A DNA stretch of 64,000 nt from Pelagibius marinus (GTDB lineage: Bacteria; Pseudomonadota; Alphaproteobacteria; Kiloniellales; Kiloniellaceae): the NCBI RefSeq assembly GCF_014925385.1, contig NZ_JACSDK010000015.1, positions 186,001 through 250,000 on the forward strand. Direction: 5' to 3'. The stretch's first letter is position 1; each line of letters begins with the position of its first letter. The translations under genes were made by a program, and so were the position numbers. Below, one piece after another: positions 2,322 to 42,855 of this stretch. The notes beneath the pieces are model-generated. The model was not told the origin of the DNA and did not search any database. It saw nothing but the letters and a program-made list of their open reading frames with translations.

Positions 2322-2693
2322 ATGAAACGCCATAGTTTCAAGGACGGTGAGGTCATATTCCGCGAGAACGATCCCAGCGATTCGGCCTATCTCATCATGG
2401 AGGGCCAGGTCGAGATTATCCATGAGCGCAAACGTGACCAAAATACAACCGTCGCCACGCTCGGCCGCGGTGAGTATTTCGGCGAGATGGGCGTGATCGA
2501 CGACAAGCCGCGCTCCGCCACGGCCCGCGCCAAGGGAGAGACATCCTGCATGTCGGTGAGCCAGGAGGAGTTCATGGACATGCTGCTCAATCGCCCCCAG
2601 GAATCCATCGAGCTGCTGAAGGTCCTCTTCGCGCGCCTGCGCAAGGCCAACGACAGGCTGCTGCTGCTGGAAGAGGCCGGAAACCAGGGCTAG
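2322..2693 (+). CDS. Single-domain cyclic-nucleotide-binding protein
   Basis: A 123-residue protein consisting almost entirely of one cNMP-binding beta-barrel. The phosphate-binding cassette is intact: FGEMG (53-57), then RSATARA with Arg64 expected to contact the cyclic phosphate. No helix-turn-helix, kinase or transporter domain follows, only a C-terminal helix (about 95-118). It would therefore act as a stand-alone cAMP/cGMP receptor with an unknown partner. A truncated globin and an adenylate cyclase follow on the same strand (gap to the globin 78 nt), which suggests that it reads cAMP made by that cyclase. This link is inference. The family also includes small Crp-like proteins that bind partner enzymes. 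Confidence 0.88.
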   Translation: MKRHSFKDGEVIFRENDPSDSAYLIMEGQVEIIHERKRDQNTTVATLGRGEYFGEMGVIDDKPRSATARAKGETSCMSVSQEEFMDMLLNRPQESIELLKVLFARLRKANDRLLLLEEAGNQG

Positions 2694-2706
2694 CGCGCCG
2701 CTCTAT

Positions 2707-2737
2707 CGTCTGGGCCGAACAGACGTGCTAGGCTTTT
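2707..2737 (+). terminator. Possible weak terminator or hairpin between the CNB and globin genes
   Basis: CGTCTG-7 nt-CAGACG forms a 6-bp stem at 2707-2725, followed by a short T-containing run (GGCTTTTC). It starts 13 nt after the CNB stop. It may reduce read-through into the globin-cyclase pair. Confidence 0.35.
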
Positions 2738-2771
2738 CACGCTTCAGGAAGAGGGGGCGGGAAATAGGTTA

Positions 2772-3134
2772 ATGAAAGCGACGATGTTCGACCGCTACGG
2801 GGGCTTCGGCACCGTGCATCGCGTTGTCTTGTCCTTCTACGACAAGATGCTCGATTCCGATATCGTCGGACCTTACTTCGACGACGTCGACATGGCGGCC
2901 CTGGTCGATCACCAGACCAAATTCATCTCACAGGTCATGGGCGGCCCGGCATCCTACACCAATGAAGTGTTGGAGCAGGTCCACCGCAATATTGGCGTGA
3001 CCGACGAAGCTTTCGACGAGATGGCGGGCATCCTGCGGCGGACGCTGGAGGAGTTCGAGTTCAGGGACGAGGACGTGCACAGCGTCATCGCCGACATCAA
3101 CAGCCGCCGCTCCTACATCGTTTCCCGCAAATAG
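2772..3134 (+). CDS. Group I truncated haemoglobin
   Basis: The 120-residue product matches trHbI (HbN-like) globins. It has FYDKML, PYFDDVDM and HQTKFISQVMGGP, then the proximal F8 histidine in VHRNIGV (His71). Such globins bind O2, NO or CO at haem and often work as NO dioxygenases or gas sensors. The adenylate cyclase starts 14 nt after this stop, so the two are very likely translated from one transcript. A separate haem protein adjacent to a soluble cyclase suggests a two-chain gas sensor. That role is inference; NO detoxification is the simpler alternative. ATG start is preceded by a GGGGGCGGGAAATAGG stretch. Confidence 0.9.
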   Translation: MKATMFDRYGGFGTVHRVVLSFYDKMLDSDIVGPYFDDVDMAALVDHQTKFISQVMGGPASYTNEVLEQVHRNIGVTDEAFDEMAGILRRTLEEFEFRDEDVHSVIADINSRRSYIVSRK

Positions 3135-3148
3135 GCGGCCTGCCCCTC

Positions 3149-4231
3149 ATGAGTTTCCAACTCGATACCTTCAACAAACTGCTGCTGGAGACCGTAGGCG
3201 TCGGCCTGGTGATCGCCACCTATCCCGATCTGCGGCCGGTCTTCCGCAACCACCTGGTGCTGGAGTGGTTCCCGGGCAGGGAAGAAAGCGGCGCCCAGAG
3301 CCTGGAGGCACAGATCCCCGAGCTCGACGCGCTGGCGCTGCGCGCGGCGCTGGAAGCAGGCAAGACCTACAAGGCGCCCCTGGAGGTCAAGGTGAAACGG
3401 CGTATTCACGCCCTCTCCCTGGCCGCCACACGGGCCGACATGGACGACGGCTCCTGGGTCATCATCGAGCTGCACAACGTCACCAAGGTACAGGAGCTCG
3501 AATCGATGATTTCCTCCTACTCCGGCATGGTCGAGCGGCAGAACCGCATGCTGAAGAAGGAGAAGGAGCGGGCCGAGAAGCTGCTGCTCAACATCATGCC
3601 GGAGTCGGTCTACCAGGAGCTCAAGACCTTCGGCGTGACCACGCCGCAGCGATTCGACGAGGCCTCGATCCTGATGCTCGACTTCGTCGGTTTCACCACC
3701 ATGTCGGTGGAGCACGACCCCACGACCATCGTGTCGGAGCTGAACGACATCTTCACCGCCTTCGACCGCATCGCCGAGCACCAGGGCTGCGAGCGCATCA
3801 AGACCATGGGCGATGCCTATGTGGCGGTCTCCGGACTGCCCGAAGCCAACCCGGATCACGCCCAGGCCATCGCCCGCCTGGCGCTGCTTTGCCTGCGCTA
3901 CCTGAAGCGGCGCAACGAGAGCCAGAAGATCAAGTGGCGCTGCCGGATCGGCCTGGCGCCGGGCCCGGTGATCGGCTCTGTCGTCGGCATCCAGAAGTAC
4001 GTCTATGACATCTTCGGGCCGGGCATCAACCTGGCCGCCCGCCTGGAAGCCCTCGCCGGCCCCATGGAGATCCTGTTCAGCGAGGAAATGCACCCGCGCC
4101 TGCATGCCCAGTTCCAGATCGAGGAACGCGGCGCGGCCGAAGTGCGCGGTTTCGGACCGCGCCGGATCTACAAGCTGCTGGGCGCCGACGACCTCCACCT
4201 GCAAAGCGACCCGACGATCCTCGGCGATTGA
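3149..4231 (+). CDS. Soluble class III adenylate cyclase with N-terminal sensor and signalling helix
   Basis: The 360-residue protein has an N-terminal PAS/HNOBA-like sensory region (about 1-110), a coiled signalling helix with LLLNIMPESVYQEL (about 112-160), and a catalytic domain (170-345). Metal-binding Asp178 (LMLDFVGFT) and Asp222 (KTMGDAY) are present, as are transition-state Asn294 and Arg298 (NLAARLE). The purine-selecting positions are Lys218 and Asp287, the adenylate rather than guanylate pair. No membrane segment is visible. The N-terminus resembles the region that partners haem-NO-binding domains in soluble cyclases, yet the only haem protein nearby is the separate truncated globin just upstream. 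Product cAMP could feed the upstream CNB protein. Confidence 0.9.
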   Translation: MSFQLDTFNKLLLETVGVGLVIATYPDLRPVFRNHLVLEWFPGREESGAQSLEAQIPELDALALRAALEAGKTYKAPLEVKVKRRIHALSLAATRADMDDGSWVIIELHNVTKVQELESMISSYSGMVERQNRMLKKEKERAEKLLLNIMPESVYQELKTFGVTTPQRFDEASILMLDFVGFTTMSVEHDPTTIVSELNDIFTAFDRIAEHQGCERIKTMGDAYVAVSGLPEANPDHAQAIARLALLCLRYLKRRNESQKIKWRCRIGLAPGPVIGSVVGIQKYVYDIFGPGINLAARLEALAGPMEILFSEEMHPRLHAQFQIEERGAAEVRGFGPRRIYKLLGADDLHLQSDPTILGD

Positions 4232-4309
4232 GGCCCTGCCCTTCGCCGATTGCCGCAAGATTGAATCCTGTCCTAGAATTGCTCGCTCGGTTTTGAAAAA
4301 GGGGGGGGC

Positions 4310-5584
4310 ATGGCGGCGGCAAGAGGTGTTCCTGCGGGAAGGCTGCCCCGGATCCTGCGCTGGCAGGCCGCGCTCCTGGCCTTATGCCTGCTGGCCGCCT
4401 GTGCCAGCTTTACCCCGCCCCAAGCGCCCCAGGACATCGGATTCCAGGCCCGCGCGGCGACACGCGCCGAGGACGGCCTGACGATCTCGGCCGCCGCGCT
4501 GGGACCGGAGGAGTCCCGCGCCGCCTTCGGGCTGCCGCTCATCGAACGCGGCATCCAGCCGGTCTGGCTGAAGGTCACCAACAGCCGCGATGCCGCGATC
4601 ACGCTGCTGCCGCTGTTTTTCGACGCCCTCTACTATACCCCCGGCGAGGCCGCCTTCATCAATCACGGCTGGTTCTCCGGCGCCACCAATGCAGAGATCG
4701 ACCGGCTGTTCAACGAGCGGGCCCTGCCCCTGCGTGTCGAGGCTGGGCAGACCGCCGAAGGCTTCATCTTCGGCACGCCCGACCTGGGACAGAAGGCCCT
4801 GAACCTGATCTATGTCGGCGATGGGCGCAGCTTCCGTTCCACCTTCGTGGTGCCGGTGCCCGGCCTGGCCAAGCAGCCGGTCGACCTTGGCAGCCTCTAC
4901 GAGCCGGACGAGGTCCGCAATCTGACCACCGCCGCGGAATTGCGCGCGGCCCTGGAAACCCTGCCCTGCTGCGTCACCGATAAGGCCGGCGAGGTCGAGG
5001 CCGACCCCTTGAATTTCGTGGTCCTCGCCGAAGAAAGTCTCGGCCGCGCTGCCCTCATCGCCGGCGGCTGGGACCCGACGGAGGACGTAACCGGCAGCTC
5101 GGCCCTGAAAACGCTGGGATCCTTTCTCTTCGGCTCGGCCTACCGCTACTCACCGGTCAGCGACCTCTACGTCTTCGGACGCAAGCAGGACGCGGCCTTC
5201 CAGATCGCCCGCGAGGACATCCACGAGCGCAATCACCTGCGCGTCTGGCTGGCGCCGCTCACCTTCCGCGGCACGCCGGTGTGGATCGGCGCCATCAGCC
5301 GCGACATCGGCGTCATCCGCAGCGGCTTCGGCACCACCCACAAGATCGATCCCAATGTGGACGACGAGCGCTGGTACCTGGCGCAGAGCCTGGCGCGGGC
5401 CCAGGCCCTGAAACGCTTCGCCTACGTCGACGGCGGGGCGGTCTCGACGCCGGAGTCCCCGCGCAGTTCCCTGGAAGAGCGCAATGTCTTTTATTCCGAC
5501 GGCCGGCGCATCGTCCTGCAGCTTTCCCCGACACCGGTGCCGCTGGACAAGATCGAGCGCTTCCGCTGGCACACCGCGGAATAG
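4310..5584 (+). CDS. Putative lipoprotein with LssY-like C-terminal domain
   Basis: The 424-residue precursor begins with a basic segment and a hydrophobic core ending in LLAAC, a lipobox with Cys31, so it is probably an outer- or inner-membrane lipoprotein. A mixed beta region follows (about 40-220). The C-terminal part (about 235-420) resembles the LssY_C domain: LNFVVLAEES, AGGWDPT, WIGAISRDIGV and TTHKIDPNVDDERWYL. LssY was named from Legionella type I secretion-linked genes, but its function is not known. A poly-G run acts as or masks the ribosome-binding site. No transporter genes neighbour it. Confidence 0.75.
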   Translation: MAAARGVPAGRLPRILRWQAALLALCLLAACASFTPPQAPQDIGFQARAATRAEDGLTISAAALGPEESRAAFGLPLIERGIQPVWLKVTNSRDAAITLLPLFFDALYYTPGEAAFINHGWFSGATNAEIDRLFNERALPLRVEAGQTAEGFIFGTPDLGQKALNLIYVGDGRSFRSTFVVPVPGLAKQPVDLGSLYEPDEVRNLTTAAELRAALETLPCCVTDKAGEVEADPLNFVVLAEESLGRAALIAGGWDPTEDVTGSSALKTLGSFLFGSAYRYSPVSDLYVFGRKQDAAFQIAREDIHERNHLRVWLAPLTFRGTPVWIGAISRDIGVIRSGFGTTHKIDPNVDDERWYLAQSLARAQALKRFAYVDGGAVSTPESPRSSLEERNVFYSDGRRIVLQLSPTPVPLDKIERFRWHTAE

Positions 5585-39123: not shown

Positions 39124-39483
39124 CTATTGCCCGACCACCTGCCCCTTCATACTGAAGAAGATATAGAGCACTTCTTCTTTTTCGCGCTGCCCGACTTTGT
39201 TTGCCTCCATTGCCGACATGGCGTCGTCAAGCACGGCCATGAACTCGTCGTTGTTGATGTTCAGGCCGCGGTGAACCGAGACCATGTCCTTGCCCTCATA
39301 GAGATTCGGGCCGCCCGTTCCCGAGATGAAGAACTTGGCAGCCACCTCTTTCAGGCTTTCCCGGTCGCAGTCGGCAAACCGCCGGCCGATCTGTGGGTTT
39401 TCAAAGTGACGATCGATCAGATCGCCGGCAATCCGCTGAATTCCATCTGAACTGCCAAGCCGCTCATACAATGTACCGGTCAT
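39124..39483 (-). CDS. Group I truncated haemoglobin (second copy)
   Basis: A 119-residue trHbI: TLYERLGSSDGIQRIAGDLI, RFADCD, FFISGTGGPNLYEGKDM, and the proximal His71 in VHRGLNI. It differs clearly from the other truncated globin near 2.8 kb, so the two are not a recent duplication. AGAGGA precedes the ATG. It is divergent from an HxlR regulator and convergent with the DUF5676 gene. Likely roles are NO detoxification or O2/NO sensing. Confidence 0.92.
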   Translation of the reverse strand: MTGTLYERLGSSDGIQRIAGDLIDRHFENPQIGRRFADCDRESLKEVAAKFFISGTGGPNLYEGKDMVSVHRGLNINNDEFMAVLDDAMSAMEANKVGQREKEEVLYIFFSMKGQVVGQ

Positions 39484-40389: not shown

Positions 40390-42855
40390 TCAGCTATCGG
40401 ACAGCCGGGCCAGGGCCCGCTGGAGAATCTCGGCCGCCTGCCGGCGCTGCTCCGGCGACATGGAATCGAAATCTATATCGAGCTTGAAGCTGCCCGCCTC
40501 CTCGCGCATGACCTTCCGCTCCGCCCCGATGTGTTCATAGCTGTCGACGACACGGTAGGTGGCGACGGGGTAGGCCAGTCCCTTTACCGAGATCTGGCCG
40601 CGCTCCTCGCAGAGGATCTCGTCCTGGACCTGCGAAAAGGTCTCGTAGGAAATGAGGATTTCCCCGGGTTCCGAATTGGTTTCCAGCCGCGAAGCCAGGT
40701 TCACGCCGCCGCCGATGATGGTGTAGTCCATCCGGTCCTCGCTGCCGAAGTTGCCGACGGTGCAATAGCCTGTGTTGATGCCGATGCGGCACTTCAGCGG
40801 GTTCTCGATGCCCGAGGCGCGCCAGGTCTTGGCCAGCTCGTGCATCCGCTCGCGCATTTCGATCGCCATCCTCACGCAGGCCAGGGCGTCCTGCTTGACG
40901 CCCCGGGTTTCGGGGTCGCCGAAGAAGATGACGATGGCATCGCCCACGTACTTGTCGATGGTGGCGCCGTGGCGCAGGGCGATCTGCGCCATCTCCGTCA
41001 GATAGTGGTTCAGCAGCTGCGTGAGGTCCTCGGATTCCAGCTTGTCCGCCGTTTCGGTGAAGCCGGCGATGTCCGAGAAGAAGATTGTCAGCTTTTTGCG
41101 CTTCGAGGAGAGCTCCACGCTCTGCTTGCCGCTGAAGATCGAGGAATAGACCTGTGGCGAGAGGTATTTGGACAGCTTGGTCGATACGGACTCGAGCATC
41201 TGGTTCTTCCTGACGACCAGTTCGCTGGCCTCCTCCGCGCGCCGCCGCGCCTCCTGAGCCAAGGCATAGAGCCGGGCGTTGTCGAGGGAGATCGAGGCGA
41301 GTTCGGCGAAGCGGGTCAGCAGCGCCTCCTCCTCTCTGCCGAAGACCCGCAGCGAAGTGGCGTCGTAGGCCATGCCCAGCACCCCGATCACCTGCGCTCT
41401 CGACTTCAGCGGCACACCGATCAAGGCGCGTATATAGCCGTCGTATTTCGGATTGGGGACACGCCCCTCCCAGGTATCATAGCTGTTGACCACGAAGGGT
41501 TCACCCGACTGCCATACACGCCCGGCCACACCTTCGCCCGCGTGCAGCTGGTAGCCGACGGACTGCTCGTAGACCCCGACGCCGACCTTGCGGCGAATCT
41601 CGCTTTCGTTCTCATCAGCCAGATAGATGAAGCCATGCGGTGCATCCAGCAACTGCCCCGCGCGCGTGATTACGGCCTGCAGCAGCTCGTCGAGTTCGAG
41701 ACGACTGATGATGCCGAGCGTTGTTTCATTGAGGGCAGCCAGATATTCCGCCTGCCGGCGCAGCTTTTCCTGGGCCAGCACGCGCTCGGTGACGTCGGTC
41801 GCAACCCCGATCACGCCTGCCGCAGCGTTCGATTGGTCGACCAGAGGCGCGCACCATATCTCGAAGATCTGGTCGTCCAGCTTGGCGACGGAGTTCACGG
41901 TTTCGCCCTGCAGCGCCGACTCCGCGGCGGCCAGGATCTCCGGCGAACGCCCGAAAAGGGCGGAGAGCGGCTGACCGATCACTGCATCGCTGTCGGCACC
42001 CAGCGTGTCGAGACCCTTGCCCTCCAGCAGCGTAAGAGCCCCGTTCTGGTCGAGCGAGAAAAGGATGATCGGGGTATGCGACACGACGGTCGTCAGGCGT
42101 TCTTCCAGCCGGCCGTAGAGAACGCGTAGCTGTTGCGTCATCTCGTTGAACGAGCGCGAGAGAATTCCGATCTCATCCCTGGTCCGGATGGCAATGGTCG
42201 TATCGAGCTCACCCCGGCCGACACGCTCGGCCCCCCGTACCAGTTCGGCGAGCGGTGCCGTCACGCGCCGGGTCAGCGCCATGAGAACCACGGCAATCAG
42301 GAGCGAGCCGCCGGCGCCCAGAGCGAGAACGTAGGTTCCCAGCCGGTTCACGGCGCCGTAGACCTCGCTTTCCGGGTCTGTGGCAACGATGTACCAGCGC
42401 CACGGCTCGAAGTAGTGATAGCTGGCCAGATGCGGCTCGCCCTGGAAGCGGTAGCTGATCTGGCCTTGCTGCGCCTTGACCATCTCGTCAAACCAGGCCT
42501 CACCGCTGACGTCGAAACCCACAAGCGACGGGTCCGGCGCCTGGACAAGCCGCCCGCCGGCATCGACGGCGAAGACAAATCCCTGCTTTCCGATGTCGAT
42601 CCCGGACATCACGGCGCCCGCATCGCCTTGCGCCTGCGCCACGCTGGCCTCGACCGTGTTGAGCCCATAGGCCTCGAGAAACTCGGCCTGGTCCCGGGCC
42701 GCGCTCAACGCCTCGAGGCTCCGGGTCTGGAGCCACTGCTCCGCGATATCCTGCAGCGCCGACCGTGACAGGTAGAAGGTTATGCCGCTGGCCAGGGCAA
42801 AGGCGATCAGCAGCAGGGGTAAGGTCGCCAGCAGGATCTTGCCGTAGATCTTCAT
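40390..42855 (-). CDS. Membrane adenylate cyclase with Cache, HAMP, PAS and GAF domains
   Basis: An 821-residue receptor cyclase. TM1 about 8-29; periplasmic Cache domain about 30-170; TM2 about 172-194; HAMP to about 248; PAS about 252-362; GAF about 385-532; coiled linker; class III catalytic domain about 585-770. Metal Asp595 and Asp639, Lys635 with Thr712 as the purine-selecting pair (adenylate-type), Asn719 and Arg723 are present. It should convert an external ligand signal plus cytoplasmic PAS/GAF input into cAMP. It starts 40 nt after a solute-binding protein gene, which probably supplies its ligand. Confidence 0.92.
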   Translation of the reverse strand: MKIYGKILLATLPLLLIAFALASGITFYLSRSALQDIAEQWLQTRSLEALSAARDQAEFLEAYGLNTVEASVAQAQGDAGAVMSGIDIGKQGFVFAVDAGGRLVQAPDPSLVGFDVSGEAWFDEMVKAQQGQISYRFQGEPHLASYHYFEPWRWYIVATDPESEVYGAVNRLGTYVLALGAGGSLLIAVVLMALTRRVTAPLAELVRGAERVGRGELDTTIAIRTRDEIGILSRSFNEMTQQLRVLYGRLEERLTTVVSHTPIILFSLDQNGALTLLEGKGLDTLGADSDAVIGQPLSALFGRSPEILAAAESALQGETVNSVAKLDDQIFEIWCAPLVDQSNAAAGVIGVATDVTERVLAQEKLRRQAEYLAALNETTLGIISRLELDELLQAVITRAGQLLDAPHGFIYLADENESEIRRKVGVGVYEQSVGYQLHAGEGVAGRVWQSGEPFVVNSYDTWEGRVPNPKYDGYIRALIGVPLKSRAQVIGVLGMAYDATSLRVFGREEEALLTRFAELASISLDNARLYALAQEARRRAEEASELVVRKNQMLESVSTKLSKYLSPQVYSSIFSGKQSVELSSKRKKLTIFFSDIAGFTETADKLESEDLTQLLNHYLTEMAQIALRHGATIDKYVGDAIVIFFGDPETRGVKQDALACVRMAIEMRERMHELAKTWRASGIENPLKCRIGINTGYCTVGNFGSEDRMDYTIIGGGVNLASRLETNSEPGEILISYETFSQVQDEILCEERGQISVKGLAYPVATYRVVDSYEHIGAERKVMREEAGSFKLDIDFDSMSPEQRRQAAEILQRALARLSDS

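Follow-up and report, generated by a model that had tools for sequence, protein, structure and literature searches.

Organization of the globin-cyclase locus

The window, a 64,000-nucleotide stretch of the Pelagibius marinus genome, carries near its start three genes in a row on the plus strand, in the order CNB, globin and cyclase and with the coordinates and spacing that an earlier, sequence-only reading had given. The first gene (2322-2693) codes for a single-domain cNMP-binding (CNB) protein of 123 amino acids (PF00027, 87.5 bits). The second (2772-3134) codes for a group-I truncated haemoglobin of 120 amino acids, the proposed gas-sensing subunit, whose PF01152 score of 60.1 bits, against a gathering score of 21, places it in this family. 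The third (3149-4231) codes for a soluble PAS-helix-class III adenylate cyclase of 360 amino acids (PF00211, 150.8 bits; structure model pLDDT 87.2). The globin stop and the cyclase start are 14 nt apart (3135-3148), and the 78-nt gap upstream of the globin (2694-2771, plus strand) is, judging by the spacing, a candidate site for a promoter of the globin-cyclase pair. The class III cyclase domain was matched at 32 places in the window genome (G000). A further cyclase ORF lies inside the window (40390-42855), as does a second truncated globin (39124-39483, minus strand), which is unlinked, is without the DHQ stretch discussed below and adjoins a divergent regulator-like ORF.

Conservation of the adjacency in relatives

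The sequence-only reading had named a lack of conserved globin-cyclase adjacency in relatives as an outcome that would speak against it. The adjacency was conserved in every testable case, i.e., in 27/27 genomes and 78/78 named loci. The 27 distinct genomes, in each of which an unbroken contig carries a full cyclase orthologue and, just upstream on the same strand, the globin, came from a survey of 58 relatives, 385 genomes of the class and 398 of the phylum. In the set of 58 relatives, 12 genomes contain the full cyclase (E < 1e-100), and these are the very genomes that contain the close globin family (E up to 1e-29); three more showed cyclase matches of about 1e-42 to 1e-45 that covered residues 133-348 only (helix and catalytic domain). 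All 11 relatives with unbroken contigs have the globin first and on the same strand, with gaps of -11 to +19 nt, lengths that depend on the start codons as chosen in the analysis; in the twelfth (G011) globin and cyclase each lie at a contig end. The class survey, which scored the best five candidates per genome, detected the cyclase (E < 1e-60) in 17/385 genomes, with the globin immediately upstream in 17/17. The phylum survey detected it in 3/398 genomes, and the sole new one, G673, also has the globin upstream.

A second sample was fetched with the globin only, using one genome per species across 84,980 species, which gave 242 confirmed relatives. The best 80 were kept as named loci, selected with a pair of peptide patterns that includes the DHQTKF stretch. 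The cyclase is the next gene on the same strand in 78 of these 80, and in the other two only 17 and 60 nt of contig remain after the globin. Named loci and numbered genomes partly overlap, so that their counts are not additive. The named loci come from Alphaproteobacteria (Leisingera, Ruegeria, Roseibium, Stappia, Sneathiella and Denitrobaculum), from cultured Gammaproteobacteria (Marinobacterium and Motiliproteus), and from metagenome bins labelled Chloroflexota, Gemmatimonadota, Acidimicrobiia and Nitriliruptoraceae, labels that may be wrong. Overlapping frames occur in 37 of 76 globin-cyclase pairs, with a 4-nt overlap in 20 (the frame-split cyclases of L099 and L132 were dropped from this set). 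The adjacency is more than chance, because the order recurs in every testable genome despite the 32 cyclase-domain places in G000 and despite differing flanks.

Globin relatives without the cyclase

Two of 18 full-length globin orthologues in the class survey (E < 1e-30) occur without the cyclase, one in G095 and one in G364. The G095 orthologue (L155, G095:C1) reads DHQAQF and adjoins an ORF that by eye resembles a Rieske-type oxygenase. The G364 orthologue (L156) is directly followed by an ORF of 146 amino acids (3935-4376, reverse strand); by eye it resembles a PAS domain, its tail is charged and an output domain is missing. The possibility that this ORF is the PAS domain of the linked cyclases minus the cyclase was not upheld, given negative scores with HMMs A8, A3 and A1 and a probability of 1.6% in hhalign.

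A tblastn search with the globin returned seven plasmid records, one from Novosphingobium pentaromativorans and six haloarchaeal. Plasmid pLA3 of N. pentaromativorans (L169) carries the pair, followed by genes annotated as an ATP-binding protein and a response regulator; the few-nt gaps or overlap between these genes suggest a longer signalling operon. The six haloarchaeal globins are 37-41% identical, reach 93-103 bits against the globin model and have no linked-type cyclase within 2 kb. Linkage is thus a property of one globin subfamily and not of its nearest archaeal relatives.

Flanking genes and co-inheritance of the pair

The genes that flank the pair vary among the 11 intact relatives. 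For a wider comparison, crude ORF calling around 54 representatives gave 193 ORFs, of which 84 neighbours were hand-picked, mostly as the nearest gene per side, with the next-out gene, or none, taken at some loci where the nearest was short. No recurrent third gene was found among these neighbours in the first 25 of 95 families; the commonest flanking family, a methyltransferase, accounts for 7/84 neighbours within those 25.

The 54 representatives (< 85% identity), together with the window and four relatives, make up the 59 rows used below. Trees of these 59 pairs contain 29 supported splits for the globin and 37 for the cyclase, 15 of them in common; 22 of the 29 globin splits show no conflict with the cyclase splits and seven conflict. 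The varied flanks and the largely agreeing trees indicate that globin and cyclase are passed on together. Globin distances correlate with those of the PAS domain (0.54), the linker (0.59) and the catalytic domain (0.56), and 0/2000 permutations reached the PAS or the catalytic value, a result that speaks for joint inheritance and not for contact. A particular cyclase region that tracks the globin was sought this way, but the three values are about equal and do not discriminate. One locus from the window's own family (L045, genus g4) joins two records labelled Rhizobiaceae in the globin tree as well as in the cyclase tree, away from the window, as would be expected if the pair had been transferred sideways as a unit.

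Haem pocket and E-helix motif of the globin

The 2/2 fold of the window globin is closest to HbN/GlbN structures; HbN and cyanoglobins stand at the top of its solved relatives, with Mycobacterium tuberculosis HbN among the nearest. In the alignment to HbN, Tyr23 (codon 2838-2840) lies opposite TyrB10 and Gln48 opposite GlnE11, and His47 is therefore E10. These two E-helix residues belong to the stretch D46-H47-Q48-T49-K50-F51 (2907-2924, plus strand). The cyanoglobin row of the alignment likewise has His at E10. His71 (F8, codon 2982-2984), which had been named as the proximal ligand from the window alone, has a His at the matching position in all 59 linked globins. Tyr23 and Gln48 are equally invariant (59/59), and the three are the predicted haem- and gas-binding residues. 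The 59/59 invariance of DHQTKF is partly built in, because this stretch is one of the two locus-picking patterns.

Linked and unlinked globins were compared over loci that came from HMM, protein or tblastn searches. Counted among the 25 linked rows are the window, G011, whose pair falls on separate contigs, and plasmid locus L169, but not L017-L019 or the damaged G084; the 31 unlinked rows represent 29 loci. A DHQ[TS] motif is present in 25/25 linked globins versus 0/31 unlinked rows and 0/6 haloarchaeal unlinked globins (0/37), and Lys50 in 24/25 linked versus 2/31 unlinked rows. Among the 31, DHQ itself occurs once, in the cyclase-less orthologue L155, and His47 occurs in six. In all six haloarchaeal globins the stretch is AHQ[AV]Q, with His47 and Gln48 kept but no Asp46, Thr49 or Lys50. 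His47 was rejected as a marker of linked globins, being present in 6/31 and 6/6 unlinked rows. As far as the alignments go, the predicted haem-side His-Gln also occurs outside the linked set, and it is the Asp and Thr/Ser on either side that mark the cyclase-linked globins. From helix geometry, these two flanking positions presumably face outward.

Many truncated haemoglobins have no settled function. Residue E10 serves as a sixth haem ligand in the Synechocystis globin, where it is His. In Chlamydomonas THB1, THB2 and THB4 the sixth ligand is LysE10 (PMC7082302).

Architecture and catalytic residues of the cyclase

The cyclase consists of an N-terminal PAS domain (residues 5-110, 3161-3478), a long helix (residues 111-149, 3479-3595, by DSSP on the model) that joins it to the rest, and a class III catalytic domain (residues 166-343, 3644-4177), all on the plus strand. 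The Lys218/Asp287 pair and the remaining catalytic residues reported by the sequence-only reading are all there: the metal Asp pair, the Lys/Asp substrate pair and the Asn/Arg pair. We take these residues to have their usual class III roles and the Lys/Asp pair to be of the adenylate type, and the window protein is a predicted class III adenylate cyclase. Across the 59 family rows Asp287 is invariant, position 218 has Lys (49 rows) or Arg (10 rows), and the full catalytic set is present in 47. Five of the 59 cyclases (L091, L100, L119, L131 and L143) miss at least one catalytic residue (metal, Asn or Arg) and could be inactive or regulatory copies. In-frame stops were found in the cyclase of 3 of the 27 paired genomes, one stop each in G263 and G673, and in G084, where globin and cyclase both appear damaged. 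Some cyclase copies may hence be inactive.

Soluble guanylate cyclase (sGC) has the domain order H-NOX, PAS (HNOBA), coiled coil and catalytic domain. The model predicts for the window cyclase a PAS domain, a 39-residue helix and a catalytic domain, which is the sGC order minus H-NOX, and in VIA-align 2 sGC chains align across model residues 3-348 (rmsd 13-18). The N-terminus had been called HNOBA-like, a description that holds in part: the Pfam HNOBA model reached the window protein with no more than the model's own last 39 positions (14.5 bits, cut-off 23.4), and the predicted arrangement is a PAS domain plus the 39-residue helix. HNOBA was matched at E <= 0.01 in 45/59 rows (best 8.4e-6), and H-NOX is absent from the Pfam matches of the window cyclase up to E 1. 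The likeness to sGC, PAS-helix-class III catalytic order, is accompanied by differences: the haem domain there is H-NOX, and the predicted haem protein here is a truncated globin encoded as a separate chain; the substrate residues here are Lys/Asp, of the adenylate type; and HNOBA stays below cut-off. A PAS family search of the 385 class genomes gave 16 matches below E 1e-19, every one within these linked cyclases. Three weaker matches were in G223, G416 and G342, the first two of which look like histidine kinases; the PAS domain of G220 was not recovered in this search.

Proposed mechanism and alternatives

The partnership in trans of the globin with a soluble PAS-helix-cyclase, as put forward in the sequence-only reading, is supported by the conserved adjacency. 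We consider it probable that the truncated globin is an in-trans gas-sensing subunit of the adenylate cyclase, the two forming a two-gene, two-chain haem sensor. The globin would hold haem via His71, and TyrB10 and GlnE11 would take part in binding O2, NO or CO on the distal face. The globin would dock in trans onto the PAS domain or the long helix of a putative cyclase dimer. Gas binding or loss would then shift the E helix, a movement that could be relayed by the marker positions of the linked globins, Asp46, Thr49 and Lys50. The helix pair that couples the PAS to the catalytic domains would be altered as a result, so that cAMP output might follow the gas.

His47 (E10) could additionally act as an internal sixth ligand that is displaced by the gas. 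The more specific proposal built on this, in which the free truncated haemoglobin is a constant, detachable sensing subunit that switches the cyclase by swapping His(E10) for O2, NO or CO, is tentative and falls short of an even prospect. It would make the pair a new class of two-chain gas receptor, a bacterial counterpart of sGC assembled from unrelated haem parts. The proposal is less likely because the unlinked haloarchaeal globins keep the same His; all six of them do, and a His(E10) ligand would thus not be special to a sensor.

Under a different explanation, which we regard as unlikely, the globin is an HbN-like NO dioxygenase or peroxidase that clears NO or O2 near the co-made cyclase, and the PAS domain senses some other signal; PAS domains often bind a ligand of their own. 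The TyrB10/GlnE11 pair shared with M. tuberculosis HbN, a near solved relative, and the existence of globin relatives without the cyclase would fit such an enzyme. However, a general detoxifier needs no constant link to a single cyclase family, and the Asp46 and Thr/Ser49 that flank His-Gln in the linked globins are missing as a pair from the unlinked ones.

Alternatively, globin and cyclase could share a promoter and answer one condition, e.g., low oxygen, without touching each other. The short spacing and frequent frame overlap suggest shared transcription, and a tandem globin-PAS model (pLDDT 90.0, pTM 0.55) has no confident interface. This pTM value supports no relative placement of globin and PAS, and the model is weak evidence either way because it is a monomer with a 5-residue bridge. 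Mere co-regulation should split the pair or add members across this range of genomes, but the order is constant in all testable loci while the flanks change, and we judge this explanation to be quite improbable.

A three-part circuit with the CNB protein as a dedicated cAMP receptor, as the sequence-only reading proposed, is scarcely credible: the CNB gene ends 78 nt before the globin in the window and its orthologue adjoins the pair in G004, but these are the only two of 11 intact relatives (G000 and G004) with this arrangement, the orthologue is not beside the pair in the other nine, and 79/80 named loci have no CNB match in up to 5 kb on each side. The one match, at L078, falls in a different, long open frame (1070 amino acids) that precedes the globin in the same orientation. 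The best further CNB orthologue is in G049 (69% complete), and in that genome the survey did not recover the pair. Since the adjacency is confined to the window and one close relative, the CNB gene lies outside the conserved module and was rejected as a member of it; the protein may read cAMP locally in the window lineage.

Relation to known haem sensors

If the truncated globin does act as the sensing subunit, it would be a haem sensor working in trans on a class III cyclase and a useful comparison for the mechanism of sGC. One truncated-globin subfamily is tied to a single cAMP-making enzyme in cultured Roseibium, Ruegeria, Leisingera, Marinobacterium and Novosphingobium, and this tie in named cultured bacteria makes a signalling role directly testable. 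Known group-I truncated haemoglobins have been described as free enzymes or carriers. The window globin resembles HbN/GlbN in family, fold, TyrB10, GlnE11 and HisF8, and differs in its DHQ[TS] E-helix stretch and its constant cyclase neighbour.

The haem domain of HemAC-Lm of Leishmania is a globin. This protein, a haem O2-binding domain with an adenylate cyclase, has been called an O2 receptor (PMC12755159); it resembles our pair in combining haem domain and adenylate cyclase, and differs as a one-component eukaryotic protein. In globin-coupled sensors such as PccGCS and BpeGReg, a globin governs a signalling output, second-messenger synthesis among them, from within the same chain (PMC12805357); AfGcHK is a further example. 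These sensors share with the pair the proposed control of output by a globin, but their globin is of the S-family with a 3/3 fold (PMC4648194). The window globin, in contrast, is a separate 2/2 group-I truncated globin, and its proposed output is a class III cyclase; in the window and in the 78 named loci, the cyclase start lies beyond the globin stop codon or overlaps with it.

Haem-gated cyclases and globin sensors are already known. No description of a free truncated globin tied by gene order to a class III cyclase was found among the open-access papers that literature searches listed (most subscription journals lie outside these), and passages of PMC1592074, PMC3820574, PMC4720485, PMC4256840, PMC12755159, PMC7082302 and PMC12805357 do not describe the pair.

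No single-chain globin-cyclase fusion was found among the 80 named loci. None of the long globin-containing frames considered as candidate fusions was one, most reading by eye as CheA and one as a chemoreceptor. Truncated-globin domains appear, by eye, inside CheA-type histidine kinases at L145-L150 and L153 (G147, G251, G360, G282, G179, G115 and G137), placed past an N-terminal HPt-like part and numbering two per protein in G115 and G137. The L152 protein (G341:C127) looks by eye like a chemoreceptor with PAS-like repeats and has a truncated globin as its N-terminus.
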